This document shows positions 1 to 25,049 of a stretch of DNA of 64,000 nucleotides, one piece after another. The stretch lies in NCBI RefSeq assembly GCF_018143015.1, contig NC_054744.1, positions 3,555,059 through 3,619,058 of the forward strand. Reading direction: 5' to 3'. Positions within the stretch are counted from its first letter, which is position 1. The number at the start of each line of letters is the position of its first letter. The position numbers were made by a program, and so were the translations under genes. The notes beneath the pieces are model-generated. The model was not told the DNA's origin. It saw nothing but the letters and a program-made list of their open reading frames with translations, and did no database searches. This DNA comes from Lytechinus variegatus. Lineage: Eukaryota > Echinodermata > Echinoidea > Temnopleuroida > Toxopneustidae.

Positions 1-19
1 ACAGAAAATGCACGATCAC

Positions 20-1233: not shown

Positions 1234-1246
1234 TGCAAAAAAAAAA

Positions 1247-5696: not shown

Positions 5697-6075
5697 TATA
5701 CAAGAATAGATGATAGAGCAAAAATAGTGCTACATAGTAGATAGGAAACCAGAAAACAAAAGGTGAAAAAGAAATTTTCTTTACAAAAAGAAAAATCACA
5801 AAAATTATGAGCACACAAGCGCGATCATATGCAAATAAATTCATACTCATATTAGAATACAAACTATAAAAGACTAGAGATCAGATATTGAAATAATAGT
5901 ACTAATGAAATACTAAACTACTGCAGGATGAAAAAAAAAGGGTATATAGACAAAAGATACAAAAAATAAAAATAATAATACAATGCACAATCCAGATACA
6001 TGGAATTTTAACAGAATATGGAAAAGAAAAGTGAACACGAGATTAGCAAATAGAAAGCAGAGTAACATAGTCACT

Positions 6076-6822
6076 TCAAATAGAGTCAAGATCGGTCTTA
6101 GAGTTAATGAGTTTCTTCATATCTCTGTTCGGGTCATTGGTTGGGATGAGGGCTGTAATTCGGCCATCACGGGTCCAGGCATCCTTGACACGTGGATGGT
6201 CTCTGGTGTCCTTCAGGAGCTTGGCGTTGGCTGCCGTAAGATCCTCCTGAATGGACCGCCTGGAATTGGCCAGCTTCCGACGCTGGGAGAGAACCTCTGA
6301 CCTTTTTTTGTAGGTTACAAACCTCACAATTATGGGGTCAGGGATCACCTCACCCTGCCGGTTTTTCTTTGGTGCTCTTGACTTAAGCCGATGACATCTG
6401 TCAATGTCATGGCCGTTAATGTCAATTTGTAGCTGTTCTTTAACCAACTTAATAACCGAATCCTCAGCAGTCTCTCCTGTGTGCTCTGGAACCCCAAAGA
6501 CGCGCAGAGAATTCCGCCTGCTGTATTGTTCTTGGGTGTTAAGGTCCCTTTTCAAGTTTGAAACTTCATCATCCTTCCGGGCGAGACGTTCTTTAAGCGA
6601 CCGAATTTCCATCTTCTGGTCATCCCGGTGACTCTCCAGATCGAAGATTTTTGCCTCCTGTCGGTCAATAACCTCTTGAAATCTGGCTAGCTTGGTGTCG
6701 ATATGTGAAGCCACTAGCTCCACCAGCCTGCCATCTCCAAGAAGGTCCGCTAAAACCAGGGACACCAAAGAAGCAGTGGATCCCTCATTTTCCTTCTTCT
6801 CTTTATTTCCCCTAGGAGCCAT
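6076..6822 (-). CDS. LINE ORF1 protein, intact
   Basis: 248 residues from ATG at 6822. Residues from about 45 to 95 form a charged coiled coil (DRQEAKIFDLESHRDDQK onward), followed by QYSRRNSLRVFGVPE, the hallmark of the RRM-like middle domain of LINE ORF1 nucleic-acid chaperones. The C-terminal part contains PIIVRFVTYKKRSEVL and RSIQEDLTAANAKLL, the usual C-terminal domain. ORF1p binds element RNA and helps target-primed reverse transcription. It is the only undamaged gene of this element and is followed after about 380 bases by ORF2. Confidence 0.85.
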   Translation of the reverse strand: MAPRGNKEKKENEGSTASLVSLVLADLLGDGRLVELVASHIDTKLARFQEVIDRQEAKIFDLESHRDDQKMEIRSLKERLARKDDEVSNLKRDLNTQEQYSRRNSLRVFGVPEHTGETAEDSVIKLVKEQLQIDINGHDIDRCHRLKSRAPKKNRQGEVIPDPIIVRFVTYKKRSEVLSQRRKLANSRRSIQEDLTAANAKLLKDTRDHPRVKDAWTRDGRITALIPTNDPNRDMKKLINSKTDLDSI

Positions 6823-6900
6823 GTTGAAGATGAGAGACGACTATGCCACAGATTTACGACACACAGATCTCACCAAAGCTCATACACAACAATGAGGCAC

Positions 6901-7289
6901 TGTATTCCTTAGTAATGGGGAATTCCTCACAAGGACAGACTATAAACGGTGTAGATTACATGTAGTAGTAGAGAGCTATGGTGCATGCAGTATAAACATA
7001 CAGCATGAGAGTGGGTTGTTGGGACTGAAGACCAGAGTAAGGCAAGTTATTCACAATAAATCAGTCCCACATAACTAATTCCTCAATGATACTTCCTCGT
7101 GATCCAAGTTCTGGGATGTGCTATAAGAGTCCTACATGCCAGGTAAAAGTCTATTCCAAGTGGGTATTAGTGGAAATGGACAAAAAAATCACGAATCCAA
7201 GAGAGCACATTTGACACATTAGACACGTAGACATCTCTTTATACTATAAAGAGATATATATATTTCTCTTGCCAAACTTAATTTCAAGT
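6901..7289. other. Uncertain 5' flank of the LINE
   Basis: This holds either the LINE 5' untranslated region or the sequence it inserted into. It is AT-rich with no open frame of note. No clear target-site duplication was found. Confidence 0.4.
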
Positions 7290-7445
7290 ACTTTAATACA
7301 ACATTGACATCATAAAGTATTGGTGTAGACGCAACACAAAAACACAGATTCCCAGAAACCACACTCCAAGACCTTCTACACAACATTGATATTGTACAGC
7401 AGTTTCCATTGGTGTACATAAACCACAGAAACACCAGTCATTTTT
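7290..7445. repeat. Minisatellite, units of about 80 bp (right part)
   Basis: Two further units of the array at 1951-2104: CAACATTGACATC-TAAAG, then CAACATTGATATTGTA-CAG-AGTTTCCATTGGTGTA-CCACAGAAACACC. Their position implies the LINE interrupted the array. Confidence 0.65.
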
Positions 7446-8439
7446 CCATAAGTCTTTGTTCATCTCCATGTGGGGCTTGTGGACATTGGATAGGCATTGC
7501 CTGTGCCTCTGGGATCATGGCGCTGTCTTTTGTCTGTTGCCTCACCTGAATTTCTCCTGCCATAAATTTTGGTCATTGATTGGTTACAAAGTTCGATGAA
7601 GAAAAATAAATGTTTGGTGACTGCTGCCTGATGCTTGCAGGGGCCTCCAGTTTTGCCTACAGGACTTCCAAGAACAATGCCCTATGTCCATGTCTACATC
7701 ATAATTAACATCCTTGGAAGACTGCCTCTTCTTCAAGAACTGGGTGATTGAATTAGAAGAACTAGTACATGAATTTGAAAAATATATATATATACATATA
7801 TAAGTCATAAATGCAAGTTTAGAGTTAAGATTATCTGAAGTTATCAATTGTACAATGTTCAAAGTGGCATCAAAGTAGTCACCATTTCTAGGCTCTTATT
7901 TTCCACCACACTAAAAAAACATGGCAGCCAACATGCGCTGTAACTTTCATGCACGCATTTTCTATAATTGTCAGACTTTCTCACCTACAATGAAAAATTA
8001 ACAAGACATCTTGATAACTTATAGGAGGAATGCAACTATGACATTGTGTATATACATTCTGTTGGAATTATCCTTTAATTTTGGCTTTCTTGCCCAATAT
8101 TCTTAGGAGTTTACACATTACAATTAAGTTGTACTGTGAATTGGTAACACATTGAATTGAATTGAATAGTCAGAATGCACATAGCGTAAATTATTTGTTG
8201 TAAAGTTGTGCAAGTCATGTTTGTCCAAACTTAACAGCAAGTACATGTAATCTACACTACAGGACTTCTGTGTTGTCTTCATCCTCTTCTCCAAGTTTTT
8301 AATAAAGTCCATTATTGCTGTTAACTTCCACTTTACCCCTCTTGGACTTTCTGGTATTGAGTAGTAGTGGTCCTTGAGAAATGAAGGTTCTGAAGACTTT
8401 GGTACAGGTGTCTTTGCAGTATCTGGGAGGTTGTTTGCT
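7446..8439 (-). other. No assigned gene; two unassigned minus-strand open stretches
   Basis: On the minus strand an AG after a pyrimidine-containing tract near 7767 precedes SSNSITQFLKKRQSSKD, and another open stretch at about 8430-8250 reads ESPRGVKWKLTAIMDFIKN. They look more protein-like than chance but match nothing I recognise and lack confirmed splice sites. They may be relics of one transposon gene. Confidence 0.2.
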
Positions 8440-9531
8440 TCCAATGGCCACCCGCATCCAGTGCTTGTAAAGTTCTGTTCTTACAGAGTCCGAGCTAAGG
8501 TCATTGGTGCTAGAGAGCTTCTGAAAGGGAAGAAAATGAGTATCCAAGAAGATTTGACACAAGTTCGCCAAATCCTCTATCAGAAGGTCCTCAAATCGAG
8601 AGAAACTTCCAAGATCCTATCTTGTTGGAGCACTGATGGCAGAGTATTTGTGTCACTACCCTCCACTAATGGAAAGACTGTGAAGAAACTCATCACATGT
8701 GAACAAGATCTCTTGAATCTCTAGGACTGGACTTTACACGATGAAGTTATTGATCTTCCATTGTTAATGTCTTGAGAGTATATCGGCTATTTTTTTTTAA
8801 CACACCTGTAGTCTTCATTTTTCTCTTTTTGCTACGTAATTGTTGTTGGTTGTTAATTGTATTTGTGTTGCCCATGTCATACACCTGCTCTATCTGCAAA
8901 AATAATGTGAATGACATAGCTGCCTGATACTGCTAACTGTACTATATGTGAGTCCAGTGCACACATCACTTGTCTAAATAAAGTAGGACTCGGTATTAAG
9001 ACATATTCGCCATGTCCATCTTGCCTTGCCTCTATCTTACCCTTCTATAACATTGAAAATGAACAAGAATTTGTTAATGCAGTCTCATGTTCCTCATGCT
9101 TACCTGTACAAACTCAATTTTTTGAGGAACTAGAGATATTCTCTTCTCCTCTACTTGACGAGTCAAATTTTGAGGAAGCTTTTAGGGATAACAATACATG
9201 TAGCTGTAAATACTACTCAATGGACTCTTTTAATAATGCATGTAGTACATCTAACTTGAACACTTCATCTTTTTCTATATTCTATATGAATGCCCAGAGC
9301 TTAGCCAAGAAATTCCCCTATTGCATGAACTTATTACAGAGTTTATCACACAATTTTCAAATATATGGTTTCACTGAAACCTGGTTCAAGAGCTCTGTTT
9401 CCACTTTGTATAATATTCCTCATTATTCTTTTTTACAAAAATATAGACCACGAAGAAGAGGTGGAGGGGTTTGTTTATATGTATCTGATCAACTTGTCTA
9501 TAATGCACATGACGATCTGAATTTTAGTTGA
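8440..9531 (+). mobile_element. LINE fragment: ORF1 C-terminus, zinc-finger-like stretch and start of ORF2
   Basis: The plus strand encodes an ORF1 C-terminal domain (NGHPHPVLVKF, KMSIQEDLTQVR, WSTDGRVFVSLP, ending DLLNL at 8724). After a spacer comes a degraded cysteine-rich stretch (CSICKNNVND, then SSAHITCLN and CPSCLAS), then the ORF2 endonuclease start SSFSIFYMNAQSLAKKF, FTETWFKS and RRRGGGVCLYVS. The coding sequence stops abruptly at 9531, where a YqaJ exon on the opposite strand begins. The Cys-x2-Cys/His-x2-Cys pattern resembles the PHD-like finger present in some CR1-type ORF2 proteins. It is not a copy of the 2.1-6.9 kb element; the proteins differ throughout. Confidence 0.7.
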
Positions 9532-9980
9532 TACTCCATTCGGTGATGCTCCAATGTATGCTCTCTGAGGAAGCAGACACAGACCACTCTGCCTCACCAT
9601 GTGTTGTTGATGTGACCGTCTCATTACCAGTGAATTGTACTCAACAGCTACCTTCTCTTTCGGTCTTCCGCCCCCATTCGATAGCTGCTGGCTCAAACTC
9701 CTTTGCACCTCCCTTCACTAGTCTTACGGCGAGTGACCCACCTTCCTCTTTCTTCGATGACGCTATTGCTTTGAAGTTTGAAGCTGTCAGTCTACACTTG
9801 CGCAGGTCATGCCACATTTGATCCTGGGCGGTCCTCTTGTATGCTCCTCTATATCGTCTACCTCCTCCTCGGTCAAAACCATGCTCTTCGCAATCTCTGA
9901 TGGCGTAAGCACCTGCCTGGACATCATGTGTTTGTGGTACTGGAATGATGCCAATTATTGATGAAAATGCAAAACTTGAA
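9532..9980 (-). pseudogene. YqaJ-family nuclease exon, broken
   Basis: On the minus strand a good acceptor (TTTTGTGTTTTGCAG, AG at 9982-9981) opens an exon that reads MWHDLRKCRLTASNFKAIA, then AIEWGRKTERE, and, after a frameshift near 9650, AYIGASPNGV. These are the usual blocks of the YqaJ/lambda-exonuclease family: W-x2-R-x2-R-TASNF, then E-x-A-x2-WG, then GASPDG. The final aspartate and the following ExK block are absent because the exon ends exactly at the LINE junction at 9531/9532. In animals such exons commonly belong to PIF/Harbinger-related (ISL2EU) transposons, whose second protein has a YqaJ domain. An LTR element lies in the intron just upstream. Function here is lost. Confidence 0.7.
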
Positions 9981-10032
9981 CTGCAAAACACAAAAGTCAA
10001 ACAACTATAAAATCAGTTTCGTCTGAATACAT

Positions 10033-10136
10033 GTTTAGGAAATTAGGATGGTCAATTTCCTAATTATGTAAATAGAAAAAAGGAAAGATTGTGTCCTACC
10101 TTAATTTTTGCACGCCAGAGGATAGAATGAGGTCCA
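10033..10136 (-). repeat. 3' LTR remnant
   Basis: 104 bases nearly identical to 11076-11179, beginning GTTTAGGAAATTAGG on the plus strand. It is the last part of the LTR; the earlier part went with pol. Confidence 0.8.
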
Positions 10137-10934
10137 CACCACACCTGCATGCTGTTCACTGCGGTTCGGGCTGCGCGAAACTGACTGAGGGCGCTTATTT
10201 GAGTCTTTCGACTTGCGCTGCCGACTGCGACCTCTCCCGCGGTTATCTAGCAAGGAGCAGGTTAATGCTTGGACCTGCATCGTAAGCTGGGCAACCTGTG
10301 CAGAGAGCTGGTCGACTTTAGTTTCGTGCGCAGGGAGTGGAGGAGGTTGTGATGGCGCCAACTTAGACTGAATGTTAGATATGCTAGTTGGGCCTGCAAC
10401 TTCGACAATTTTGTCCGAAAGCGCCGCCAAGTCCACCAAACTCACCCCATCGCTTGATGCGGCTAGGATGACCTGCACGTTGGTGGGCAAGCGTTGCAAA
10501 AATAATTGCCGAAATATGGAATCCTCCATTGTGCTCGTCCCCATCAATAGCTGCATCCGCCGGAGGAGTTGCGATGGCGACTTGTCTCCGAGCTCCTCTC
10601 CTGACAGCAACCGATTGAGGCGCGTCTGCTCGGAGACGGTCGTTCGCTTGACCAATGCAGCTTTTAATTTCTGATATGGGTTATCGGCTGGGATAGCTGT
10701 AATGATGTCCCTCACCTCCATAACTACCTCCTGTTGTAGTGAGGCAACTACATAATTGAATTTAGTAATTTCGGCGGTAATACCCTTCGTGTGAAATTGG
10801 GCCTCCACCTGAACAAACCAAATTTCCGGGTCGTTTGCCCAGAATGGTGGGAGCTTAATGCTCACCGGAGCAATAGAGGGTGATACTGGAGAAAGAATAG
10901 ATTCAGGAATAGAGGTAACATTAGGGGTAGTCAT
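10101..10934 (-). CDS. Gag protein of Gypsy-type retrotransposon, C-terminally truncated
   Basis: 277 residues from ATG at 10934. The capsid-like core includes LPPFWANDPEIWFVQVEAQF, FNYVVASLQQEVV, RDIITAIPADNPYQKLK and FLQRLPTNVQVIL, matching Gag of invertebrate Ty3/Gypsy elements. A basic Ser/Arg-rich linker (RGRGRSRQRKSKDSN) follows, where the family normally continues into a zinc knuckle. Here the frame instead crosses the deletion junction at about 10137 into LTR sequence and ends WTSFYPLACKN. Gag forms the particle of the element in the cytoplasm. No protease or polymerase follows. Confidence 0.8.
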   Translation of the reverse strand: MTTPNVTSIPESILSPVSPSIAPVSIKLPPFWANDPEIWFVQVEAQFHTKGITAEITKFNYVVASLQQEVVMEVRDIITAIPADNPYQKLKAALVKRTTVSEQTRLNRLLSGEELGDKSPSQLLRRMQLLMGTSTMEDSIFRQLFLQRLPTNVQVILAASSDGVSLVDLAALSDKIVEVAGPTSISNIQSKLAPSQPPPLPAHETKVDQLSAQVAQLTMQVQALTCSLLDNRGRGRSRQRKSKDSNKRPQSVSRSPNRSEQHAGVVWTSFYPLACKN

Positions 10935-11057
10935 GTTGTAGAGTTAAGAAAAAAAAATGAGGAAGTAGAAAGAAAATAAAAATAGTGAAATGAGAAGCAA
11001 GAATAGCGAATTGAGAGAAATGAATAGAAGGCGATAAAAGAAAATTAAGGATTCAGG

Positions 11058-11075
11058 ATCACGTCGGGGTCACCA
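11058..11075 (-). other. Primer-binding site for tRNA-Trp
   Basis: The minus strand reads TGGTGACCCCGACGTGAT directly after the LTR end. This is complementary to the 3' end of animal tRNA-Trp including CCA (plus strand: ATCACGTCGGGGTCACCA). It fixes the orientation of the element and the LTR boundary at 11076. Confidence 0.8.
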
Positions 11076-11179
11076 GTTTAGGAAATTAGGATGGTCAATT
11101 TCCTAATTATGTAAATAGAAAAAAGGAAACATTGTGTCCTACCTTAATTTTTGCTCGCCAGAGGATAGAATGGGGTCCA
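11076..11179 (-). repeat. End of the 5' LTR (shared with the 3' remnant)
   Basis: Right-hand copy of the 104-bp direct repeat, next to the primer-binding site. The LTR continues beyond 11179 but has no second copy here for comparison. Confidence 0.75.
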
Positions 11180-12066
11180 GCCGCTCAGATAAATTGCACA
11201 AATCCCATGGACAGAAATATATACACTTCGAAATTTCAAATAGATTAGGAAGAAGGGATAGATGTCACAAATGTCTCGCGAAGTAATGAGCTCATTAAAT
11301 ATGCAGAGTAAATATAGACTCCGAAGGAGTGGAAGTGACGGTAAGAATAAGAATCAGAAAAGGTAGAGAAATATGTATAAATCGATCCTCCACAAGATTC
11401 GATTCTCACTAGCAGCTGGATGAAATGGACAGCATGAGTGGTCAGGACGAAGGCAGAAAGTAGAGTGGTGATGTGGCAAAAGTAGCATGTTGGTTTTTGC
11501 CAGCATCACAAAAAGGGGGTATGAAGACCACACCCAAAAGAGAGACAAAAAGCAAGTTGAAAGGAGAGAGTGAGAGAGAGAAGAAAGAGCATCTGTGTAG
11601 TGATGCAGTATAAGTGCAGTGGGGAGCAAGGCCAGAACAATAAATCAGGTACATTAATGCCAGGTTGCCTTGCTCCAAGTCCATTATGTAAAAGTGAAAG
11701 GAAGATGTTTGTTTGTAAGATTTAGGCAGAAAATATGCATACAGTGGTAGTGCATTGCATTTGACACAAACAAGATTGAATGTAGAAGAGAAATATACAT
11801 GGAAATAACACAGAGAATATAGGCTTATAAAATTATGTTGACATATGAATGAAAATATATACAGGAAAATAGTATGATATATACATGAAAATAGTATGAA
11901 GATATAGTCAAGTCACTACACATGTATGATACTTGCTGGTAGTGTGTATGAGTGAAATTGAATATTATATCGTTCATTCACAATCTGTAACATACCAGTA
12001 TGCATAGCCTGCAAACAGAGACTAATTTAACATAATGCAATCCAAAGGGAGCTGATTCCTGATAAT
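11180..12066. other. Rest of LTR and flank, no gene
   Basis: The first part should be the remaining 5' LTR; the boundary could not be placed because the opposite LTR is truncated. The remainder is AT-rich with no coding signal. Confidence 0.4.
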
Positions 12067-12259
12067 TTAAAGAAAATCAAACAATCCATTAATTACATTG
12101 CAGGTTTCACCCTGTGTCTCATCCAACGTCGTATATTCCTTAAAACGTTTTTTATTCTCCAGTCTGGCAGGATCCAATCCTACAGTCACCTTGAAATCTT
12201 TACGCATTGATTCCCTAGTTGGAAATTCAAATAAATCATCTTTCTCAGTCACACAAATA
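12067..12259 (-). CDS. Possible terminal exon, unknown product
   Basis: On the minus strand an AG (ATTCTTAACAG) at 12261-12260 opens a frame reading VTEKDDLFEFPTRESMRKD and ending GLFDFL then TAA at 12067. The amino-acid mix (charged, with LDETQGETCNV) looks like real protein rather than noise. I do not recognise it. It lies among transposon genes on the same strand and may belong to one of them, for example the gene of the YqaJ exon. The upstream tract is only weakly pyrimidine-rich. Confidence 0.3.
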
Positions 12260-12299
12260 CTGTTAAGAATGAACAATGATAAGAAAAAATAATAAAATG

Positions 12300-12988
12300 T
12301 TAATATCTCAACTTGTGCAAAATGTAGATACTGTAGGTACTGTGTTTTTTTTTAAATGGGGAGGCAGTGAAAAAAAGGATGCCTGCTGGGTAGTTAGAGA
12401 CCATATTATATGTCCAATTGATCATCCATCTCTGACATCATCATCGTCAAGAATATACTGTGCTTCAAGGATCTCAAGGGTGTATACATTTTGGGGGGGA
12501 GTACAGCTGACTAGAAAGGAGGATATATTGCAGTTCTCAGCAGTTTTCTAATAGTATATATTGCCCAACATCAGAATGCCTAAACAGATACCTATTCATA
12601 TAAAAGCATAAATGTCAACATGGGTCAGAGTAGTGGCATTTGACGATTGACCCGCGTCATCAACTATCGGTAGTTTCCCTGGGAACCATTGTCAAAGTGA
12701 CCATGACGAGAGGGTGATCTCTATTGGTTGGAGTATGATCTTGATGGAGAAGGGCTAGGAGATCAACCGAATCACTGATCAAACCTGTCTGGTTGAAAGT
12801 GTTGTCTTACATGTAGCCTGGTTGGAGTTGGAGATCTTCGATGATAATCTGATCAAAAATCTTGCCTGCCTCTAGATTCTTGAGTAGACTGACGAAAGGA
12901 TGACTAAGATGCAGATCGAGATCTTTGTATAACATTCAGAGTGTGTTGACCTACGACCTAGAACATGTGTAGTTGTTATACAAATAAC
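12300..12988. other. No gene seen
   Basis: Non-coding; short inverted words such as GGGTCA/TGACCC near 12620-12650 but no recognised element. Confidence 0.4.
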
Positions 12989-12991
12989 TTA

Positions 12992-13849
12992 GGGCACTGC
13001 CACACCTTGGCGTTTTAGACAGCATATGCCCGACGTATGAGGAATTTGGTGAATACGCTGGCGTACGTCGAATACGTTACGGGTAAGTTTTGCATACGTT
13101 AAGAGTACGCTAAAACACGCTGGTATACGTCGTCATACGGCGAGGTCGTCGAAAAATTTTGTGCTTGCACAAAATTTTTCGACGTATGCCAGCGTATGGC
13201 TCATACGTCCCGCATACGCGGGCCATAAGTTGTAGGCAAGTTACGCGATCGTTGATACACGTTGACACACGTTACTCATAAGTCGATGTACGTCGAGATA
13301 ATGTCCAGCGTACCCTAAAACTTCTAACCTATGAGTAACGTGCTTTGAACGTATGTGTAACTTAACTCCAACGTATATTGACGTATGAACGTGTTTATAA
13401 CTTACAGCTACCGTAAAATAGCGTATTGACGTTTATAGGAATTGGTATATAAAGGTGGGGTTCACAGGAGTTTTCTTCGGCATGGCGGTGGTGTTGATAG
13501 GTGATGTATCGTGCGGTTATGATTTGAATAGTCGAGCGGCAGCCTTTTTATAGGCTACGACACGTGTTCGTCAGCGATACGCTGCCGCGCGCTATGCGTA
13601 AGTTAGGCTATCGTAGGGCATAAGTTGTGTACGCCAGCAATACGCTAAGCATTCGTTGGAATACGTTACTTATAAGTTAACGAAGCGTTCGATATAAGTT
13701 ACTAATACATTATGCACACGTCCAATTCGTTATGAATACGCTAAGTATACGCCCAGAGTTGAAAAAAAAATCAAAGTTCAGCGACGTTTTAGAGAAATTT
13801 TGATACGTCAGGCATATGCTGTTCAAAATGCCAAGGTGTGACACCACCA
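12992..13849. mobile_element. 858-bp foldback/MITE with TTA target duplication
   Basis: TTA at 12989-12991 and 13850-13852 flank the element. The termini are inverted repeats: the left begins GGGCACTGCCACACC and the right, reversed, TGGTGGTGTCACACC, both followed by TTGGC-TTTT-ACAGCATATGCC and GACGTAT. A 3-bp TTA duplication fits the PIF/Harbinger superfamily. The interior is packed with TACG, ATACG and TAAGTTA words on both strands, far richer in CpG than its surroundings, and holds a perfect 18-bp stem hairpin. No open frame codes for a transposase, so it is non-autonomous. Confidence 0.75.
13147..13184. repeat. Perfect 18-bp inverted repeat with 2-base loop
   Basis: CGTCGAAAAATTTTGTGC at 13147-13164 and its exact reverse complement at 13167-13184, separated by TT. 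It would form a cruciform or hairpin in the left half of the 858-bp element. Confidence 0.95.
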
Positions 13850-13852
13850 TTA

Positions 13853-14214
13853 AAAACAAAAGATGCATACCTTCTCTAAGGGAGTTTTTTTCTTGAACTC
13901 AATCGTTTCCTTCTTTGTGTTGGGTCTGTCATGTACCCAATGGCACGGGTTGTCTTGTCTAAAATGTACTGGAATATAAGAGAATGTACCTTTCATCATT
14001 GTCAATCAGACATAAACCAATTGAGGCATTCTAATTGGTGTATACATTGTATATTTTTTTCGCTTTTACATCACTTTGAAAACTGGACAGCTTCTGTACT
14101 GGATAGGGGTTTTTTCATAACTTCACTTTTTCATATTTCATAAAGAACAAATTTTCTCCTGTTCTTATTAATTACTCTTATTTTCTTCTATATGGATTCT
14201 AACACTTACAAATT
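13853..14214. other. No gene seen
   Basis: AT-rich non-coding sequence between the foldback element and the next minus-strand exon candidate. Confidence 0.4.
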
Positions 14215-14284
14215 TCATATCATATCTTCATCTTGTAGCTCAACTTTTTCCACGACCTCTCCGTGCCGCTCTTCAATTGTGCTG
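14215..14284 (-). CDS. Possible terminal exon, unknown product
   Basis: On the minus strand CATTCTTTCAG precedes a short open stretch STIEERHGEVVEKVELQDED ending MI then TGA at 14215-14217. It is acidic, like the short exon at 17094-17219 (PELSTIEEVKTSPVKEE), and could be part of the same gene. No family is recognised. Confidence 0.3.
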
Positions 14285-14639
14285 ACTGAAAGAATGAAAT
14301 TGGAAAATATTATATTATCATATGAGTGTTAACGAAGGATCAAAATTTCTAGATTGGTAATACTGTATTTACTGGATGTGGCTAATTATATTATTCCTCA
14401 CTTTCATGTCTATTACCTATAATGGATGGCCTAACCTCCCTTCTTGAGTTCCTCAAGCCCATTTTCTTCAAATCATCAAGAAGCGGACCGGAGGTGAAGA
14501 AGTTACCAAAATGAATATGGTATCTCATCATTCCTGAGAGATTCACGTTTATTTCCTGTCAGGTTTCACTTGAACATTGTCTGCCATGTCATGTATGTCC
14601 TGAAAGGTTCAGGAAATCTAAAAAATGGCCAACTTTCTT

Positions 14640-15490
14640 CTGCGCTGATTGCCTTTTGGCTGTGGACAGGAACTTAGAACCACTTGCCTGCAGCCCTCTC
14701 TACGCATTGTCAAGCTTTTCATCTATCATTGAGTTGTAGAATGACAGTTTGTGCCTCCTCCACCAATTTCCTATGTTCACTGACATCACTTTCCCTCTCA
14801 TGTTCCAATAAGTCCAACATAAGTATGGAGGAAGCACGATTGTTCTCGTCCCCTACAGCCTCTACGGAGGTCTTGTAATCAGGACAGACTCAGTTTGAGT
14901 CCTTGAGTTTGTACACGGTACACCTTTTCCCATACAAAAGCACTTCGCATGACGGCGAATGAAGCTCTGAATGCCTTATCCGGCAGGATTCTGTCCCCTT
15001 CTCCTTGATGATGGAGACATTGCCCATGCCTTCTGCACCATCTTTCACCGTTGTCAAAATGAGGGGATCATCGTCATGTCCCAATCCACACGAAGCCGAC
15101 CATTGAGCGATTTCTTCATCTAGTTCTTCAAGAGTCTTGGCCAAGGCATGCAAATTCAGCCACTGCACCCCGCTTTAAGTTGGGAGCAAGAACCTTTGAG
15201 TTCATTGTGCAGCTCCCCTCCTATTGGCAATGGTTCAAAGATGATATTCCCGTACTCGTTGGAGTCAGACCACCTGCCTCCTTTAACTGGCGTATGCTCT
15301 ATAAGTTCAGCATCCCCTTCGAGCTTTGAACCGCACACTCCCTGTCATATATGCCTTCTCTGCCTCGTCCAGAACATGTGGTTGCTTCAATGCATCCTTC
15401 ATCTGTTCGTACTGCTCTCTGTACCGATTTTTAGTGGTGACGCGCATCGCAAGACATTGTTCAATAGTCATTTCCTTTGAACTGCCCATA
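14640..15490 (-). pseudogene. RAG1-like recombinase, decayed core fragment
   Basis: Several minus-strand blocks line up in order with the vertebrate RAG1 core. First CLAMRVTTKNRYREQYEQM and a following AEK match the CLAIRVNT...QY..M...AEK block before the catalytic domain. Then ALAKTLEELDEEI and TVKDGAEGMGNVS match the first catalytic block (CDGMGDVS in RAG1). Next come DENNRASSILMLDLLEHERE (DES...L-LIAERE), MIDEKLDNA and, after a TAG, RGLQASGS (GYDEKL...EGLEASGS). Spacing between the GMG and EKL blocks is about 105 residues, as in RAG1. The first catalytic position is Glu, the second Asp (MIDEKL) is kept, and the next zinc cysteines are missing. I see at least three frameshifts and two in-frame stops, so it is not functional. 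RAG1 with RAG2 cuts DNA as a DDE recombinase; sea urchins carry RAG1-like genes and transposons. Confidence 0.8.
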
Positions 15491-15744
15491 CTCTATGCAG
15501 TCAGTTCACCTGACAAAAGAATAGTGAATGGGTAATGCCGTTGGTTCCCACCTTTGCATACCAAAGGGAATGCACATATATCTGGTCGAAATAAAACAAA
15601 TCTTTAGAATGTCGTAACTTTTGGCGTTATGCTCATTTTCCTCCTTTCTTTTATTCAACTCAACTACTATATTTGTTTTGATGGACTTCCCTTGAAGCCT
15701 GCTATGACCTGTTTAAATCTTAGATCTTTTCAGAAAGGATTGCA

Positions 15745-15817
15745 TTAAGCCTCTTGGTCTTCTTCGTTGGCTCCTCTCCATCCATGCCCTTTGCTCTTCA
15801 GATGATGGTTGTTACAT
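15745..15817 (-). CDS. Possible short terminal exon, unknown product
   Basis: After the acceptor CTCTTTACTTCAG the minus strand reads CNNHHLKSKGHGWRGANEED and ends QEA then TAA at 15745. It is on the same strand as, and upstream of, the RAG1-like fragment, and could be an exon of that or of another transposon gene. The pyrimidine tract is good, but the exon is too short to classify. Confidence 0.25.
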
Positions 15818-15857
15818 CTGAAGTAAAGAGAAAATGCAGGAATTAAAAACAAATTAA

Positions 15858-16729
15858 TGTAGGGGAAGGCAGGGTAAGTTGCGCATAGGGGCAAGTTGAG
15901 CCACCACCCCCAGGCTAATAATGAATGAGTCAGACATTGTGGTGGTGTCATGTATTGATGACCCATTGCATAACCCTTAACCCAACCACTTTATTTCCAA
16001 CTTTGAACAAAAAGTACTTTTTTTAGAGGGAAAAATGCAAATTTCAACCAAAAAAGTAAATAAGGTGTGAAATAGCTAAGTGATTTTTACCCACACACGT
16101 CTTTGAATATATTATAGAAATAAGAACAATATTGTTAGTCCAGGCATGGATTCTCATTCTTGTCATAGTTTTTTACATGATGAATGCATAAGAAATGTGT
16201 GGATGTGAAAATATCGCAATAAGTTCGGACTGGGGTAATTTAAGCCAAATCAACATGGGGCAAGTTGAGCCATGTTAATTCTTATGGTGATGTATAATAA
16301 AAAAAAAATTAAAAAACATAAAAAGCCATTGATATGCAGGCAGAAAGGAGCAAATTCACATGACAGTTCTTTTACTTTTAGAAGATGTTAGTATTTATAG
16401 AGAATTAGCAAGTGAAAAGACTTTAAATGAAAAATTGACATCCTGGTTCTTCCCGCATACATTTTGTACATAGTTTTTGTGGCTCAACTTACCCCAGACT
16501 GTGGCACAACTTACCCCATATATGGGGCAAGTTGAGCCATTTGACATCGTTTTTTTTCAAAGGTCATGATGACTTTCAGTGTGGGGGTAGAAAGTTATAT
16601 GTAGGTGAAAAACATTTCCAAAGAATCAAATTTAAAGGCAAGGTACTTATTTCTACAATATTACTAGTCATATTAATTCTAACATGCAAAATGCAAAAAG
16701 TGTCACAGCTTACCCCGCCTTCCCCTACA
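15858..16729. mobile_element. 872-bp MITE with GGGGAAGGC-GGGTAAG termini
   Basis: The left end TGTAGGGGAAGGCAGGGTAA and the right end, reversed, TGTAGGGGAAGGCGGGGTAA form terminal inverted repeats. Inside, GGGGCAAGTTGAGCCA and its complement TGGCTCAACTTACCCC recur at 15888-15902, 16256-16273, 16480-16497 and 16523-16541. The 2-bp duplication is either AT or TA; the palindromic ends do not allow a choice. There is no coding capacity. Confidence 0.75.
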
Positions 16730-17093
16730 TATTTTTAAAAATTACACCACATATTTGAGTAAAATGTTTATGTTTTGTGTTGACAAGGATCTATTTGCAA
16801 GCTGAAGATATCTGTCATCTTGAAGGATGTTAGGCATTGCTGTCTGGATAAGAGTGTCAGTTTCTTTCCCTACTTGTTAGATCTAGTGTTATTATCATTA
16901 ATGTCATTGTTGAGGGCTAAAAATGACAAAACATGACATCATACTTGTAGGTCTGAAAGAACATTTATTTTTGTCAAAATCAAGAACAGCCCCAGAACCG
17001 AGAAATTCATCTTATAACTCATACTCATTGTTGCTGTACAAAACAATTATATATTTCATTTCAAATAGGATGATCCTCAAAAAGAAAACTCAC

Positions 17094-17219
17094 CAAAGAC
17101 AACATGCCTTCTATCGACACCCTCTTCTTTGACAGGAGAGGTCTTTACTTCTTCAATTGTAGAAAGCTCAGGACATGTATACGCATCAATAGTGCAGCTA
17201 TCAAGAGTAAACCTTGATC
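17094..17219 (-). CDS. Internal exon, unknown transposon-like gene
   Basis: On the minus strand an AG at 17221-17220 opens SRFTLDSCTIDAYTCPELST, continues IEEVKTSPVKEEGVDRRHVV and stops at a GTGAGT donor (17093-17088). The frame is open throughout and both splice sites are good. The sequence is not recognised; the acidic VKEE type composition resembles the exon at 17643-18791 (KAIKVEEKPFFMAE), so I place both in one gene. Confidence 0.35.
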
Positions 17220-17642
17220 CTTTCACAAATATTTTGAAGAAATAAAAAAAATTAATTCATTTCATTAATATTACGCCTAAATAAATTCAGTATAATTACG
17301 ACAATTACATTAAATCACATCACATATTTTTTAAATCAAAATGAATACATTGGACAACCACCAAGATTACAAATAATTACAAGTCAAAGAGATATAATTA
17401 ACTACATGTATCTAATTCCACCTCCATTATCATAAATTTTTCACATTTTCCAAACCACATTAAGTTCTGATTAGTAATAAAAGATTACCAAGCATACACT
17501 CTACCATGTCTACGTTTCATCTCATTCTAAACCCAGCTTCAATTTCATTCTCAACAAACACAACATACATTCTATGTCTAGATTTAGGCTGGGCCTGGCT
17601 CTGGGTATAAAATAGTCTCGAATATTATTAATATTTTTTCCA

Positions 17643-18791
17643 TTAATACCAACTTAAAATAAAAAGATAACAAGCATTAGACCCCTTCCTTAGCCCTTCC
17701 TTCACTTTCTCTCGAAGTCGAAGAACATCAATTCCCTCATGTGTATCAATACTACATTCAGCCATAAAGAATGGTTTTTCCTCAACTTTAATCGCCTTCG
17801 ACATCACATCTCCCTCCATTTCAACGTACGTGTCCACACAGCCAAGTGTCGGCTCATACACGCCTCCTCAACAGAACTCCATGTCCCTTTTGTTCCTTAT
17901 TACTCAAACTTCTCAAGATCGGCTCTCCAGCAGTGACCTTGATACCAGAACTTGTTGAAGTATTACAAGTTTCTGCGGGTATGTCAAGGTAGGAGAACTC
18001 GAGTTTGGTGTAGGCAGGGTTGTGGGTTTTCGGTTTGACGCATGGGTGGGACGAGTCCAGGATCATTTTGTGGAGGCATGGCAGATGGGGCATTTATGCT
18101 GGCAGAGCAGGAAACACAAATCTGTTTTATCTTTATATTCAATGTGCCACAAGACCAACAGGACTTCCACTCTCTTCTCTCTGACTCTTGACTTATCTCG
18201 TCATCAACATGGTCAAGCCACTTGCCATTCTTATGAACCCGCTGGTCCACGATTCAGTCTTCCGGTGTCTTGTACACTTCTTTGTAGTGTGTATTGTTAA
18301 CAGCTTTGTTGAAGGTACTGTTCTCATCCAGTATGACTTCTTCAACAGTCTTCCTGATCGCTTCTTCTTTAAGCCACTTTCTGGGCTTCAAATCTGCAGT
18401 AAATTGTAGATTGCTGTCTGGTTGAACTTGTGCGTAGCAAACACTTGTGATTACACTTGACTTCACCTTATTGTCCGGTTGAGCATGATAAGTTTTCCCG
18501 ATCACCTGATCGTTATCAAATGCGCAAAGCACATCCCAACAAGGGAAGACTGGTGTTCCAGCCTGGGTCTTAAGCCAGTTTGTCACATATATGAATGACT
18601 TCCTGCTGGCGATGATGAAGAGTTTGTATTACATACAAGCTTTTTCCGGGCAACTGCGTAGGACACAGGATTTTCAGAAAGTGAAATTGGCAATATTGTT
18701 TGCTTGTTCTGTAGGTAATATGTTTGTTCAATTGCTTTGGCAAGATCAACCTCCCTATCTCCGGCACTATGCTTGGGATCAGTAGTAGTAC
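17643..18791 (-). pseudogene. Unrecognised transposon-like protein with zinc-ribbon motif
   Basis: The minus strand gives one discontinuous protein: VDLAKAIEQTYYLQNKQTIL, then after a frameshift TNWLKTQAGTPVFPCWDVLC, AFDNDQVIGKTYHAQPDNKV and LKPRKWLKEEAIRKTV; after an in-frame TGA at 18254-18256, KSCWSCGTLNIKIKQICVSC; after another shift, EPTLGCVDTYVEMEGDVMSK and KVEEKPFFMAECSID. The C-x2-C...C-x2-C pair (CWSC and CVSC) looks like a zinc ribbon. The type of sequence is familiar to me from multicopy invertebrate genes of unknown function, but I cannot name it. An upstream exon may lie at 18795-18925. It lies between a RAG1-like relic and a Harbinger relic on the same strand. Confidence 0.5.
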
Positions 18792-19366
18792 CTTAAAAAA
18801 AAATCACAAAATTCCTCGAAGCGATCCACTCCTTGAGATTTAGCCCACACATTGCATCAATATCATTTGCAGGAAGATGTTTAATATCAGATTTCACTGC
18901 CGTTTGTTGGCTCTGTCCTAAAAAAATAAGCCACCTGTGCCAACTCAAACTTCTCAAGTATAATTTCAGCAAACCCATTTTCACAATTCCAACGTTCGAA
19001 ATCAAGGAGAATGTAGCAATTATGAGATAAATCACACACGTGTATCGCACTTCACCTGCAACCAGTGCGTTCAGCCAATTCACCAAGCAAGGTATGCTAC
19101 TGCTAGCTATAGCTGCATGCTTCGCTTGGGGCATAGATAAATGTACCCATTAAAATATCATCTAACATACACATCTCACGCAAAAATTTAATCCCAAAAC
19201 AAACATCAACAATCTCATACAACTCAAAAACAACAACTAGATTTTGATTCGTCATAAAACGAATTACATGTAGGTGGTTTGTCGTAGATAGATAAAAAGA
19301 TAAACAGACATAATTATTTAAACCAATGAATAGATATTAGATTGAAAGATAAATAGACATACATAT

Positions 19367-19644
19367 TTAAACGTATACATATAAGGAAGATAGATAGCAA
19401 GACAGGAAACAAACAGGAACTAGGTCTAATCTCTTGGTGACTGCTCTCTCTTGTTGCTCTACATTATCATCCATCAGTACTTCAATCTCATCAGGTTTTC
19501 TGAAATTCTTAGTGAGGTTGTAAAGCACGCAGCATGCGTTAATGACCCTACAGGTCCTCCCTGGACTGAAGGGTAGCCCGTCTCCCAGCAAACACCGAAA
19601 CTTGTTTTTCAGCTGGCCGTTGACTTGTTCTATTGCCGTGGGCT
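19367..19644 (-). pseudogene. PIF/Harbinger (HARBI1-like) transposase C-terminus
   Basis: After the acceptor TTTCATTTACAG (AG at 19646-19645) the minus strand reads PTAIEQVNGQLKNKFRCLLG, then SPGRTCRVINACCVLYNLTK and NFRKPDEIEVL. This is the end of the DDE_4 catalytic domain of Harbinger-type transposases: the E-x2-x-G-x-LK-x-RF-x-CL block carrying the last catalytic Glu, followed by the ACCVLHN helix. Upstream exons with the two Asp residues are not seen within the window. The frame after the domain runs into low-quality sequence, so this is a relic or last exon only. Confidence 0.7.
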
Positions 19645-20289
19645 CTGTAAATGAAAGAGATTTGAGATGGATTCAAATTCTTCGCCTCTACAAATATGAT
19701 TACAGAAACCAAATTTAATTATTCATAAAATACATAAAGACACTGTAGATTAGGGAAATGAAATATGCAAGAGATTCAGGTCTGCACAATAGAAGCAAAC
19801 AAATGAATCAGGATTACTCTATTTTGATCAATGGTGCAAAATAACTTCATTCAGTTCCCTTAAAAGGATTCCATCGAGTACGTTCTTTCAAATGGAGTTT
19901 TAGCATTTACAGTGGTGCAGAAAAGATTGTGAACCCCATCAGAAAATGAACATGTTTCAAGTTCTGCCATTGCTGAGGTTATGAAATATTACCTTCAATA
20001 AAATTTGATTCTCTGGGCTCGCCAAACATGGTAGTGTTGTTAAACCCTTGTTTAACTGGGATGTTTCAGACCACTGCAGGATATACATGTTCGCAGTCAA
20101 GGCAATCTACCCTTTCATTTGCTTGCAGTCATAAGCATAAAGAAATGTGGCGTATGAAAAGCCCAGGGCAACAAAGTTAGAAATATCCAGAAACTGAAGA
20201 TGATGTGATGTCAGTACCATGTGATTATGGTTCCGCTTGATGACATAACCAACAGAATCATGCTGTACAAGTGATGGATAGAGGTAATG

Positions 20290-20690
20290 TAGGGCTCCAA
20301 ACTAACCCTTTTTTTCTTCTGGTCCAACCTGTTCATGTTGGACCAGTAGATGCCCAATTTTTCAATTTTTTACTGGTCCGAACCTAAAATTTACTGGTCC
20401 CCAAAAATACAGAAAAATGTAAAAAGACATTCAAGTTTATTTTCCTGACTGGAATTGCTTTTAATGCTCCTTCCACAACATTATTCATGAGAGCCATTTC
20501 TGAATTTTTGAGAGCCATTTTTGAAGATGCCAGAGCCATTTTTAGAATTTAAAAGAGGAGAAAATATCATTTTTATCAGTTTCATATATTTTCTACCGTT
20601 ATGTCAGACCAGTAAGTCTGGCTATTTCTGAAAAAACTACTGGCCCGCTAGCAATTTTTGCTGGTCTGGGACTGTCGGACAAGTGCCAGT
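20290..20690. repeat. Interspersed repeat rich in ACTGGTCC/GGACCAGT
   Basis: The segment starts GTAGGGCTCCAAACTAACCC and contains repeated TGGTCC, GGACCAGT, ACTGGTCC, GACCAGTA and three GAGAGCCATTT units. It has the look of a dispersed non-autonomous repeat, but the right-hand terminus is unclear. Confidence 0.4.
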
Positions 20691-20699
20691 GTCGTGCGC

Positions 20700-20938
20700 T
20701 GGGTAATGGCGTTGATATCATACCTCCTGGAAGTGAGGCCAACCACAGGGAGTTCTGTGATGTGGTTCATGAAACACTCCTTCAGTCTCTGAAGATGTGT
20801 AGCTGTTTGAGGTGACTCGTTTATTTGCCTTCTGCCAACTCTCATATTCTTGTATTTTTTCATCCAATTTTTTTTTTATCTCATCCTCGTCAGAAGAGTC
20901 TAAGAGGCAGGAGTGTTTACTTACCTCCAGGAGGTACA
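20700..20938 (-). CDS. Possible exon, unknown product
   Basis: On the minus strand CTCCTGCCTCTTAG precedes an acidic stretch (DSSDEDEIKKKLDEKIQEYE) and a GTATGA donor-like site. A different frame gives KECFMNHITELPVVGLTSRR. I cannot decide the frame. A second donor consensus GTAAGT lies at about 20930. Probably an exon of a transposon gene on this strand. Confidence 0.25.
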
Positions 20939-20984
20939 ATATTGAATCATCAATTAATTTTGACAGTATCCATCAGACACTTGA

Positions 20985-21470
20985 TGATGGTATTGTATTG
21001 TATTTATTTTCCTTTTATAAAAACATGCATAATATAAACAAATTCATGAGACATAATTACAATATAAAATGAATACATATGAATGGCTGGATTGCCCATT
21101 CAGGGTGGTAATTGTTACCACTCTGTTCTGCCTAGGGGTCCAGAACATGATAAAATAGATCAAATTGTATTATAAGCATAATTAACAACAGAAAAGAACA
21201 TTGTTAAACAAAATATAAAGTAATGAAAACTAGACAGTAGACATAAAACAAAATTTCAAGTTACGAGTTCAAGCTACAAGCAAATTCCCCCCCCCCCTTC
21301 CTGGCAAAACAATGTGTTGCTCAGAAATCAATGTAATTTGAAATCTTAAAGAAGTCATAAATGTTGTAAAGTTTTTGATAAATTTCATATTTAAAGGTAA
21401 GTCATTATATAGGCGTGAACCTCTATATATAAACATTCTACGGCGATTTTCTGTATTTGGTTTGGGCATA
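20985..21470 (-). mobile_element. LINE 3' end
   Basis: The minus strand encodes NTENRRRMFIYRGSRLYNDL and then PLNMKFIKNFTTFMTSLRF, the last conserved part of LINE ORF2 proteins. About 290 bases of AT-rich 3' region follow, ending AATAAATACAATACAATAC, a short tandem tail. The copy is 5'-truncated. Confidence 0.7.
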
Positions 21471-21481
21471 ATTACATTTAC

Positions 21482-21798
21482 CTACAGTAGGGTTCTGTGT
21501 AACCAGGAACATTTGAATTGATGCTCATGCTCATTGGAATGTGGCGTGATGGAAACACAAGTTTGTCAGTTGAAGCATCATTGGATTCTTTGTCATTTTC
21601 TATCTTTTCCATGTATGACTCCATGTCAGATGTGGCAAAATATGGTAAGAAGTGTGTTGCTTCTTCGACAGAGATGCCTTCCTGTTGGGAAATTATGCTT
21701 GGTGGCTGTTGAGGTGCATATTTTCTCATTGGATTTTTTCCATAGCTTGTCACATGTACTTGTACGGCATTGATAGTTTTGGCAGTATCAGTCAATAT
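21482..21798 (-). CDS. Internal exon, unknown product
   Basis: Bounded by the acceptor TTTCATTTCAG (AG at 21800-21799) and the donor AG-GTAAAT (21481-21476). The frame is open for 105 codons: ILTDTAKTINAVQVHVTSYG, then KYAPQQPPSIISQQEGISVE, then HFLPYFATSDMESYMEKIEN. Not recognised. Both splice sites are good, so it is a credible exon, perhaps of the gene to which 20700-20938 belongs. A LINE 3' end is inserted in the intron that follows. Confidence 0.4.
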
Positions 21799-21799
21799 C

Positions 21800-22289
21800 T
21801 GAAATGAAACTGAAATGGTTTTCATACAGATTTACATACATTGTATTTGGAAACTTATCTAATCTACTGCGAACAAGTTTAGCAGCAACTGTTACATTTT
21901 GACCGTCCACCCACTCTTTCTTTTTCCCTCTGTAATGTTATCATCCCTACATGTACGTTGTACAGGTTGTAATTACCATGATAGTGATCTTAAAGAACTC
22001 TTCAATTTTGTTTAACTTGCTTATAGTTCTATCTCTTTGAAATCTGACATTTTGATGTGAGGCACGTACTGTTTTAGCAACGTTCTCACCATAGTTTCAA
22101 AAGCTTGAGAATTTGCACCTTGAAAGAGAGCTAAACATCTGAAAAGACAAAGGTTAACATTTTACATCCTACCAGTTTTATGGCTCTTAACTAGATATAC
22201 AATAACATGATTATTACATTATGCAAAGTCATGATGATGTCATACCCATACATGTATATGGGTATTGCATCATAATGACATCATGCTTA
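21800..22289. other. No gene seen
   Basis: Non-coding flank with an inverted word pair around 22243-22280 (ATACATGTATATGGGTAT and ATGACATCATG). Confidence 0.3.
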
Positions 22290-22509
22290 GGGTGTGTTGC
22301 AAGAAAATATTGCGATCAATTGCAAATATTCTGTTGCAATTTTACAACTGATAGGTCAACGTTAGTTATAGCAAATCAGATTAGACCTCTTAATTCAAGG
22401 AGCAGATTAGCAATCAATCACTAATTTACAATTAACTGCAAGACATATGATTGTTCTAGAGACCAAAAATAGACTTGCAATTGATCGCAAGTTTCTTGCA
22501 ACGCCCCAT
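22290..22509. mobile_element. MITE with TTGCAA-rich inverted termini
   Basis: The left end GGTGTGTTGCAAGAAAATAT-TGCGATCAATTGCAA mirrors the right end, which reversed reads TGGGGCGTTGCAAGAAACTT then GCGATCAATTGCAAG. The whole 220 bp is nearly palindromic and non-coding. A relative lies at 51448-51593. Confidence 0.65.
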
Positions 22510-23215
22510 TAGTCTTGATGATGTCATATCTGCATTTAGGTATGACGTCGATATGTTTGCCCCCCAATATTTTCATTTGGGGCGATCGCCCCCTGCCCCC
22601 CCCACCCAGGATCGACGCCTCTGTGTATACAACTTCTCTTTTAAATCTAACCTGACTGGCAATATCTTTATTCTTCTTAATGCATGATGATAAAATGCAG
22701 ATTCTGACCAATTAAGACTAGCACAAATTACAACCTGTGTGGCTTCTCGTGCGCCATCGGGCTTACCGTCATTCCTTTATTTATCTTGCCACCCTTTTAC
22801 TCCCTTTTATTTTTCTACCCTTTTGAGTAAATGATTTATTTAAATTAATTTATTCACCACTGGTGGGATGGAACACCCTATCAACAAAAGTTGATTTTCG
22901 TTGGGGTCCTTTTATGTCATGTGTTAAAAAATATCAGATACATAAACATTTCATTCTTTTTCATCTTGAACCTCAACCCATCTGTTTAATAGTCCTGAAA
23001 AAGAATGTTTTTATTTAATAACAATATACACAAATTGCGAGGGAAACAAACTGATTGATGGCATACTATAATCATCATGATCAAACTTTTCATTTTTTCA
23101 TCATCATTATTATAATTTTTCTACCCTAAATTATTGGGGGGGATGATAATACAGGCCATCCCCCCACTTGAAATATTGGGGGGGATATATCCCCCCCATC
23201 CCCCCGTGATCGACA
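22510..23215. repeat. Dispersed G/C-tract repeats
   Basis: Two relatives of one small repeat: C-runs followed by CACCCAGGATCGACGCC at about 22590-22618 and by CCCCGTGATCGACACCC at about 23200-23218, both with TATTTC/TTGGGG near their other end. No coding content. Confidence 0.4.
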
Positions 23216-23221
23216 CCCATG

Positions 23222-23396
23222 ATATGATGCCTGACCATTGCTGGCTTGGCGCAAGATCACACATAAAATCTGAAAATAGCACGGTCCTGCTATAACTCTT
23301 GTTGCGAGCATTTCAAGGTCTATGCTGTTGAATTGTGGAGTGACCAGTCCTTTTCTGCCAGTTGGATACGATGCCTGACCATTGCTGGCTTGGCGC
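23222..23396. repeat. 31-bp direct repeat
   Basis: ATGCCTGACCATTGCTGGC-TTGGCGCAAGA occurs at about 23226-23255 and again at about 23370-23400. The right copy is coding in the DUF7869-like relic (SCAKPAMVRH), so a piece of that gene was duplicated. Confidence 0.75.
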
Positions 23397-23703
23397 AAGA
23401 ACCCCAGCTCAAGATCGATCCAGTCATGAGCTGTAAGTCCTTGTAGGAGGTCAGAATCTTGTTCCCCTCGGTTTTGGTGTATTTATAGTGGTGGGGTTGG
23501 GTGTGTCCAGATACAGTGGATATATGGGGTGCCAGCCGTGACTTGAAGTCGTATAAGGATGATATCTCTGTGCAGTTTGGTAGATTAGATATCAATTGTG
23601 GAAGTGTTTCTGCTTGTGTTCGATGTAATTTCCTCCTTATCTGGGAGAACATCTGATCATGATCTTCATGAGTGTGACCCACAAGAAGAAATGGAATGTG
23701 AAC
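23320..23703 (-). pseudogene. DUF7869-like transposon-associated protein fragment
   Basis: After the acceptor ATACATTCATAG (AG at 23705-23704) the minus strand reads VHIPFLLVGHTHEDHDQMFS then QIRRKLHRTQAETLPQLI. The FLxVGHTHEDxDQ-FS block is the signature of the DUF7869 family found in many multicopy, transposon-like genes of invertebrates and plants. The frame stays open to TAG at 23320 and includes ISSLYDFKSRLAPHIS and KPAMVRHRIQLAEKDW. Upstream exons are not seen, and a 31-bp part of the 3' end is duplicated to the left. Activity of the family is not established. Confidence 0.6.
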
Positions 23704-23829
23704 CTATGAATGTATTTAAAAGTGACAATACAATAACTGCTTGGTCTATCCTGCACATGATCATTGTCTCGCAAGATTATGGGGGTGTAACGATTGCATA
23801 CATTGTAGTCATGCCACCTTAATAGAAAT

Positions 23830-25049
23830 GAGAGTATTTTTTTATGAGATATAACAAATAAATTATTTTCTTTGACATCTACAATTTTAACTTACATTTC
23901 TTATGATAAGGTGCTTTTAGTAATATTACAGGACATCTAGTGAAGTGAAACAGAAAAGTTCATCTGTTGAGGATGATCCGATAAAATACTGTTTAAACTT
24001 CTACCAACCTTGAAAGGATCACTCTAGATGAAAAGGATCAAACTCTTGATATCCATTACCATCCATCTTTGGTCCAATGATACAAGATCAATGATCTTTC
24101 CTTCTTTCTTCAGGCTGAAGTGGCTGCTTGTCCAGATAATATCCCCCTAGGTTTGAGATCTTGGATTTTAGTTAGTGAATCCCTAGTACTGTCGCATAGC
24201 ATTGAGACTCGTATCCCTCACCCGCCACACTACACATGAGTCTGTTGCCAGCACCAAGATGGCTATGATGCATATGTATGTTGCTTGTATGCGTAGCGAC
24301 GATAGCTCTCATTTGAGCGTGGGATGTCCCTGGGAAAGTTGCCATTACTCGCCGCCATACATGTTGCCAAGACATTCCCATTTATTACGACATCTTTGAA
24401 ATTTTGTTATGTCGTCTTGCAGGTAGAAGTTCCCTGTCTGTATCTGTTGTCTGATTCCCCATTACAGAACATATCCTCAAAGTTTCCATTCCCCATATAT
24501 ATAGCCATAGCCATATTCTTTCACCGTCAATGAATTTCTTGACTCACTATCCTCTTGAATTTCTCCTTAGGGATAATAATTCCTTTCCCTAAAGCATCCT
24601 GTTTAAAAAAAATGATAATCCTAATTTGTGTGTACATTTGTTATATTTGTGTGATGTTAACTTTTTTCTTTACAAATTTCAGGCAATTATTTAATGAATG
24701 ACATATTCAGTCTGGCTTCATCTAAATTGACATAAACGCCTTCCATGTGTGAATGTACATATACAGGTATGTTTAAACAATTGATGTTTATGAGTAAAAA
24801 TCTGTGGTAGTTGTGATTATCGACCAGTCAGTATACCTTCATCAAAAAGCGACTACAAGTTTTCTTTTCATTGTCGAATGTTCTCACACTATTAACTAAA
24901 AACCAGTGCTTGTGATATTGGTTCTGTATCTGGTATGCCTTCATAAAAAACTGGCTGTACCCTACCCACTTGTGTCTTGAACTCCTCAGGGTATTTTTGA
25001 GATCTGTTGATGCATGATGTACTACCATATCCTGGTAAAAATGTCAGAC
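23830..25049. other. No gene seen
   Basis: AT-rich non-coding sequence; the open frames are short and unlike known proteins. Confidence 0.4.

Follow-up and report, generated by a model that had tools for sequence, protein, structure and literature searches.

A truncated and frameshifted RAG1-like relic in the genome of Lytechinus variegatus

We analyzed a stretch of 64,000 nucleotides of Lytechinus variegatus DNA, referred to below as the window, and observed a RAG1-like relic on its minus strand at 14552-15480. The relic corresponds to residues 245-564 of a protein of L. pictus, V(D)J recombination-activating protein 1-like (P0002, 828 aa), and it is interrupted by 9 frameshifts and 3 stops. 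It is very likely a dead, truncated copy of a RAG1L recombinase/transposase gene, belonging to the lineage of L. pictus RAG1L; RAG1 itself is the enzyme by which our antibody genes are cut and joined. A first-pass annotation had described a decayed RAG1-like core on the minus strand, and this description was supported by the alignment to P0002, by the Pfam RAG1 match and by the match to amphioxus RAG1L (6b40).

Position and identity of the relic

The relic was compared with P0002 in an alignment that tolerates frameshifts. We observed that 242 of the 305 aligned residues, running from 15480 to 14552, were identical (79%). Besides the frameshifts, the alignment contained small in-frame gaps, and the stops were located at 14890, 14700 and 14609. 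A second implementation of frameshift alignment gave a score of 1091, while 20 dinucleotide-preserving shuffles reached 65 at most (mean 42.5, sd 6.0). With 9 frameshifts and 3 stops, the relic is a fossil, as had been claimed. The frameshifts noticed earlier were confirmed, but the two in-frame stops reported then are in fact three; similarly, the claimed region was correct, but its lower limit was not, as the match goes 88 bases further, to 14552.

The blocks listed in the first-pass annotation (CLAMRV, QYEQM, AEK, LEELDEEI, GAEGMGNVS, ASSILMLDLLEHERE, MIDEKL and RGLQASGS) were all found on the minus strand in the order given there. They are spread over two of the three minus-strand frames, and the third frame holds a conserved block absent from that list, ILPDKAFRASFAVMR. 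Based on reading frames and the frameshift alignment, the block CLAMRVTT..QYEQMKD..DEAEKAYMTGSVRF occupies 15310-15480 (minus), which we take to be the DNA-binding part of the RAG1 core. The block LEELDEEI..VKDGAEGMGNVSIIKEKG follows at 14893-15174 (minus) and contains E at the position of the catalytic D600. After the stop at 14890-14892 the same frame continues with the block VEAVGDENNRASSILMLDLLEHERE (14722-14889, minus). The last block, MSVNIGNWWRRHKLSFYNSMIDEKLDNA with a stop and RGLQASGSKF (14552-14786, minus), carries the match to its end at P0002 residue 564; it retains the equivalent of D708, while those of C727 and C730 are gone.

Two observations concern the limits of the relic. P0007 gave a weak tblastn match (E 0.48) that extends to 14492, so the relic may go approximately 60 bases past 14552. 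At the 5' end the relic is preceded by a pyrimidine-rich stretch ending TTTTGTCAG, and P0003 and P0005 begin near there, which makes it a candidate exon boundary.

It is unlikely that an assembly error lies behind all the breaks, because the same stretch contains open frames of 600 aa (3829-5631) and 280 aa (10101-10943). This argument is not absolute, since the retrotransposon at 3829-5631 itself shifts frame once inside its reverse transcriptase.

We searched 5.8 billion proteins with the frame containing most blocks and obtained four matches at E up to 1. The top one was the L. pictus RAG1-like protein (E 8.1e-62); starfish RAG1-like proteins, from Acanthaster and Asterias, made up two of the others, and the last was an unnamed protein whose precomputed domains are the same. 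The check proposed earlier was whether RAG1-like proteins would be the best match along the entire span, and this is what was found. Further, the frame-joined read-through matched Pfam RAG1 (PF12940) above the curated cut-off (8.3e-11, 41.1 bits, cut-off 25). No single frame of the relic reached this cut-off. When the 7 pieces were compared with Pfam alone, none scored above any cut-off, RAG1 appeared once (14.4 bits, cut-off 25), and sub-threshold matches to unrelated entries were obtained as well (DUF2420, 0.069; SMUBP-2, 0.053). Since single pieces reach RAG1 at 14.4 bits only, the family assignment is carried by the read-through, by the match of two pieces to 6b40, and by the protein and PDB searches.

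The two pieces, which lie in the same frame, matched amphioxus RAG1L (6b40) at 1e-11, with an unrelated nucleoprotein appearing weakly (0.7), and the ILPDKAFRASFAVMR block matched the adjoining part of the 6b40 chain weakly (0.068). A PDB search with the read-through returned 16 distinct sequences at E up to 10, all of them RAG1L or RAG1: amphioxus RAG1L 6b40 was the best (3.1e-49), and the best of the 15 RAG1 sequences, from a vertebrate, stood at 8.3e-13. No Transib chain was present among these matches at E up to 10. A phage collection searched with the relic DNA gave no match, as expected. We saw no evidence against RAG1L identity beyond the sub-threshold matches of single pieces and the single frames that stay below the Pfam cut-off.

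Conserved residues, kinship and drift

Mouse residue numbers were assigned by hand in the alignment, where D600 corresponds to D396 of P0002, D708 to D505, E962 to E761 and C727/C730 to C524/C527. We take D600, D708 and E962 to be catalytic, and C727 and C730 to be zinc-binding. At the D600 position the relic has E, while all of the homologues compared have D (11/11). The D at the D708 position is kept, and the E962 position lies past the truncated end. Both zinc cysteines are lost (C727 changed to S, C730 deleted). The relic thus does not hold the full set of RAG1 catalytic and zinc residues. In contrast, P0002 is an open protein of 828 aa with equivalents of D600 and D708 and with both cysteines, whereas the relic is truncated and frameshifted and has neither the D600 equivalent nor the cysteines. 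The relic is a member of the RAG1 family by descent, but it is dead and not working; because of its breaks it would make no enzyme today.

One of the homologues, a S. purpuratus RAG1-like protein of 340 aa (P0010), shows Y where C727 would be and N in place of another conserved aspartate, and it ends near P0002 residue 604. It may be a decaying copy itself.

A RAG1L profile search, in which the 8000 candidates sharing most words were scored, yielded at least 11 proteins. In a tree of 12 rows, constructed without Transib, vertebrate RAG1 or known RAGL family A, C and D sequences, the relic paired with P0002, its sister with 79% identity over 245-564 (support 100/99), and the branch of the relic was 0.23 long, compared with 0.018 for P0002. 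The shortness of the P0002 branch and the 79% identity, the greater share of change having occurred in the relic, point to a host in Lytechinus (Toxopneustidae) or close to it, provided that no horizontal transfer took place. With regard to possible membership of the RAGL_B family, which would place it with RAG1L of echinoderms and cephalochordates and apart from vertebrate RAG1, the relic matched ProtoRAG far better than vertebrate RAG1, and its partner, in this tree without vertebrate RAG1 and families A, C and D, was L. pictus RAG1L.

We counted lineage-specific changes with a related protein, P0009, as the third sequence. They were found in 34 of 258 columns for the relic and 8 of 258 for P0002; excluding residues up to 3 positions from a break, the counts were 25/208 and 6/208, respectively. 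The MAFFT alignment misplaced the first two relic residues, which lie outside the P0009 columns and hence do not enter these counts. Differences in the relic fell on 25 of the 123 columns invariant in P0002-P0005 and on 29 of the 133 variable ones (Fisher p = 0.88). For P0009, over its own columns, the corresponding values were 9/172 and 67/193 (p = 5e-13). With five homologues as the reference, the relic differed in 23/118 invariant and 31/138 variable columns (p = 0.65); the values were 15/95 and 24/111 (p = 0.37) once positions up to 3 residues from a break had been excluded. Judged by these columns, the changes that the relic has undergone after separating from the L. pictus copy ignore conservation, as would be expected of neutral decay. 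The branch lengths, the lineage counts and the counts of invariant and variable columns together indicate free drift in the relic and constraint in the L. pictus lineage.

Approximately 51 of the 63 amino-acid differences fall to the relic. In a hand calculation with assumed transition weights, this gives about 0.08 neutral substitutions per base, from which about 2.7 stops are predicted; 3 were seen. The relic represents recent decay from a copy close to a living Lytechinus gene.

Missing parts and the neighbourhood

Residues 1-244 of P0002 left no credible trace in frameshift alignments of the minus strand from 15481 to 64000 and of the plus strand from 1 to 64000, or in tblastn over the whole window. 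Two candidates were rejected. The one at 31804-32014 (minus, score 60, maximum of 20 shuffles 49) proved on inspection to be a His/Ser/Pro simple repeat, and the one at 53378-53610 (plus, score 76, maximum of 10 shuffles 56) falls in the simple-repeat tract of the 53-54 kb region. Using the N-terminal parts of P0004 and P0007 as queries gave scores of 53 and 61 elsewhere in the window, values that have no shuffle control. For residues 565-828 of P0002 the best scores on the two strands of the window, 45 and 49, were within those of the shuffles (10 each, maxima 70 and 54).

The first-pass annotation had advised a search for RSS-like terminal repeats; at the relic such a search gave a chance level only. 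With the left end sought in 5000-14552 and the right end in 15486-26000, one pair of CAC-starting repeats with an exact 5-bp duplication was obtained, agreeing at 9 of 13 bases, which is what shuffled sequence gives (50 shuffles: mean 0.62, sd 0.75). Heptamer-like sites within 11000-19000 were located at 18765 (plus) and at 11136, 15209 and 15941 (minus); none was paired with a duplication, and these sites have no shuffle control. Neither RAG2 nor kelch was detected on the plus strand from 1 to 15002, with zero Pfam matches at E up to 0.05, a search in which Pfam may miss RAG2L. This negative result is weak, because RAG2L is described as poorly conserved (PMC7204232).

Two inverted-repeat pairs were considered as ends of the relic and rejected, as they are adjacent to it and do not enclose it; the arms start, as reported, with TGCCACACC and ATGTAGGGG. 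One element, at 12998-13843 (846 bp), has arms of 41 nt that are 88% complementary (TGYCACACCTTGG) and several internal inverted repeats, and it looks like a MITE. The other, at 15857-16730 (874 bp), has arms of 25 nt that are 92% complementary, internal GGGGCAAGTTGAGCC copies in both orientations and, by eye, a possible TA duplication.

The relic had been placed inside a cluster of other transposon genes, and we did find other mobile-element genes in the window: a non-LTR retrotransposon, DUF7041 and DUF7869 matches and the two inverted-repeat elements. The retrotransposon (3829-6840, minus) shows endonuclease and reverse transcriptase matches in the 600-aa open frame at 3829-5631; a 254-aa open frame upstream may be ORF1, and the reverse transcriptase continues downstream in another frame. 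The 280-aa open frame at 10101-10943 (minus) contains DUF7041 (Pfam 4.5e-30), presumably a gag-like domain. A weak, sub-threshold DDE_Tnp_4 match (18.8 bits, cut-off 24.8) at 19517-19633 (minus, coordinates by hand) is possibly a scrap of a DDE transposase. The DUF7869 match (9.4e-25) at 23437-23727 (minus, coordinates by hand) is probably another mobile-element relic. A RhoGAP-containing gene was recognized at 54 kb; a 170-residue open frame, regarded as one of its exons, gave 225 candidates in a search, none of them at E up to 1e-5. Beside the RhoGAP match, at 53178-54905, there are long simple-repeat tracts (Ile/His/Met- and His-Pro-Ser-rich frames), which gave false matches in the frameshift searches.

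Origin of the relic and known RAG1-like copies

We consider a transposon fossil the first choice for the origin of the relic; a solitary host gene that was duplicated, the duplicate becoming a pseudogene, comes second. The parent would have been a RAGL transposon, with RAG1L and RAG2L between terminal repeats, moved by DDE cut-and-paste; one insertion at this place would have been stripped of its ends and of the greater part of its length before drifting. On balance, derivation from a RAGL transposon is probable. The searches made yielded neither a credible N- or C-terminal part nor a RAG2L, and neither terminal repeats nor a target-site duplication, so that such an origin can only be inferred.

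The blocks are short and lie in different frames, as they would if chance or biased motif reading in non-coding DNA had produced them, but this explanation is refuted by the alignment score (1091, with none of the 20 shuffles above 65) and by the E value of 8.1e-62 among 5.8 billion proteins. It is also most improbable that the relic is what remains of an ordinary Transib transposon and not of a RAG1-like gene. P0002 itself does match chain 6pqn, a DNA-mediated transposase which we take to be HzTransib, although weakly (6e-5); yet the read-through had no 6pqn match at E up to 10 while reaching amphioxus RAG1L at 3.1e-49, and the relic joined L. pictus RAG1L at 100/99 in the tree, which was made without Transib. 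In favour of the Transib reading, Transib transposases are reported to be distant RAG1 homologues (PMC4411706).

The second choice deserves more weight, although we regard it as rather unlikely. The relic would then be a duplicate of a domesticated, solitary host RAG1L ('type II', PMC9885083) that arose by segmental or partial duplication, without transposition, and became a pseudogene. Sea urchins are reported to have solitary RAG1L genes together with likely pseudogenes (PMC9885083), the branch of P0002 is short, as for a gene kept for use, and the searches gave neither RAG2L nor terminal repeats with a target-site duplication. However, a truncated old transposon would look identical, and a RAG1L-RAG2L fossil insertion of L. 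variegatus without detectable ends has already been published (PMC4411706).

That fossil, LVRAG1L/LVRAG2L (TransibSU), is located in an intron of Ecp2 and is described as having stops, frameshifts and a lost N-terminal part (PMC4411706). Like the relic, this sea-urchin RAG1L is dead, carries stops and frameshifts and shows no detectable ends; unlike the relic, which has no C-terminal part and no RAG2L match, it is described with a nearly intact core and C-terminal part and a RAG2L partner (PMC4411706). By this published description, the relic appears to be another copy. According to PMC9885083, four urchin genomes contain 3 to 7 RAG1L matches each, with three matches for L. variegatus, one of which may be the relic, and approximately 60% of urchin RAG1L sequences are neither annotated nor expressed and are treated as potential pseudogenes. 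The solitary (type II) urchin RAG1L and potential pseudogenes of that report resemble the relic, a RAG1L remnant for which no partner was found. Dead sea-urchin RAG1L copies are therefore already published (PMC4411706, PMC9885083), and the relic is of that kind. No paper pairing Lytechinus pictus with RAG1 was found in the open-access papers searched.

The RAG1L of amphioxus ProtoRAG (6b40; organism according to PMC9885083) belongs to the same family and covers the same region as the relic (E 3.1e-49). ProtoRAG is a transposon described as carrying RAG2L and terminal repeats (PMC7204232, PMC9885083), whereas neither was found at the relic. In RAGL transposons, RAG1L and RAG2L are reported to be convergent (tail-to-tail), with repeats starting CAC and 5-bp duplications (PMC7204232). 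For a starfish element, 13-bp repeats and a 5-bp duplication are given, and the gene order is worded as head-to-head (PMC4411706).

In summary, the account of RAG origins is unchanged by the relic, and the echinoid record of RAG-like elements gains one well-defined dead copy. Because its own decay was unhindered and its sister protein changed very little, the relic offers a neutral standard against which selection on the surviving Lytechinus RAG1L can be judged. We suggest, tentatively and at less than even likelihood, that the relic could be an insertion of a RAGL transposon family that remained mobile in the genus Lytechinus, and that the L. pictus RAG1L which survives has been under purifying selection. 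If this were true, these urchins would still possess a functional RAG1L, either mobile or domesticated.
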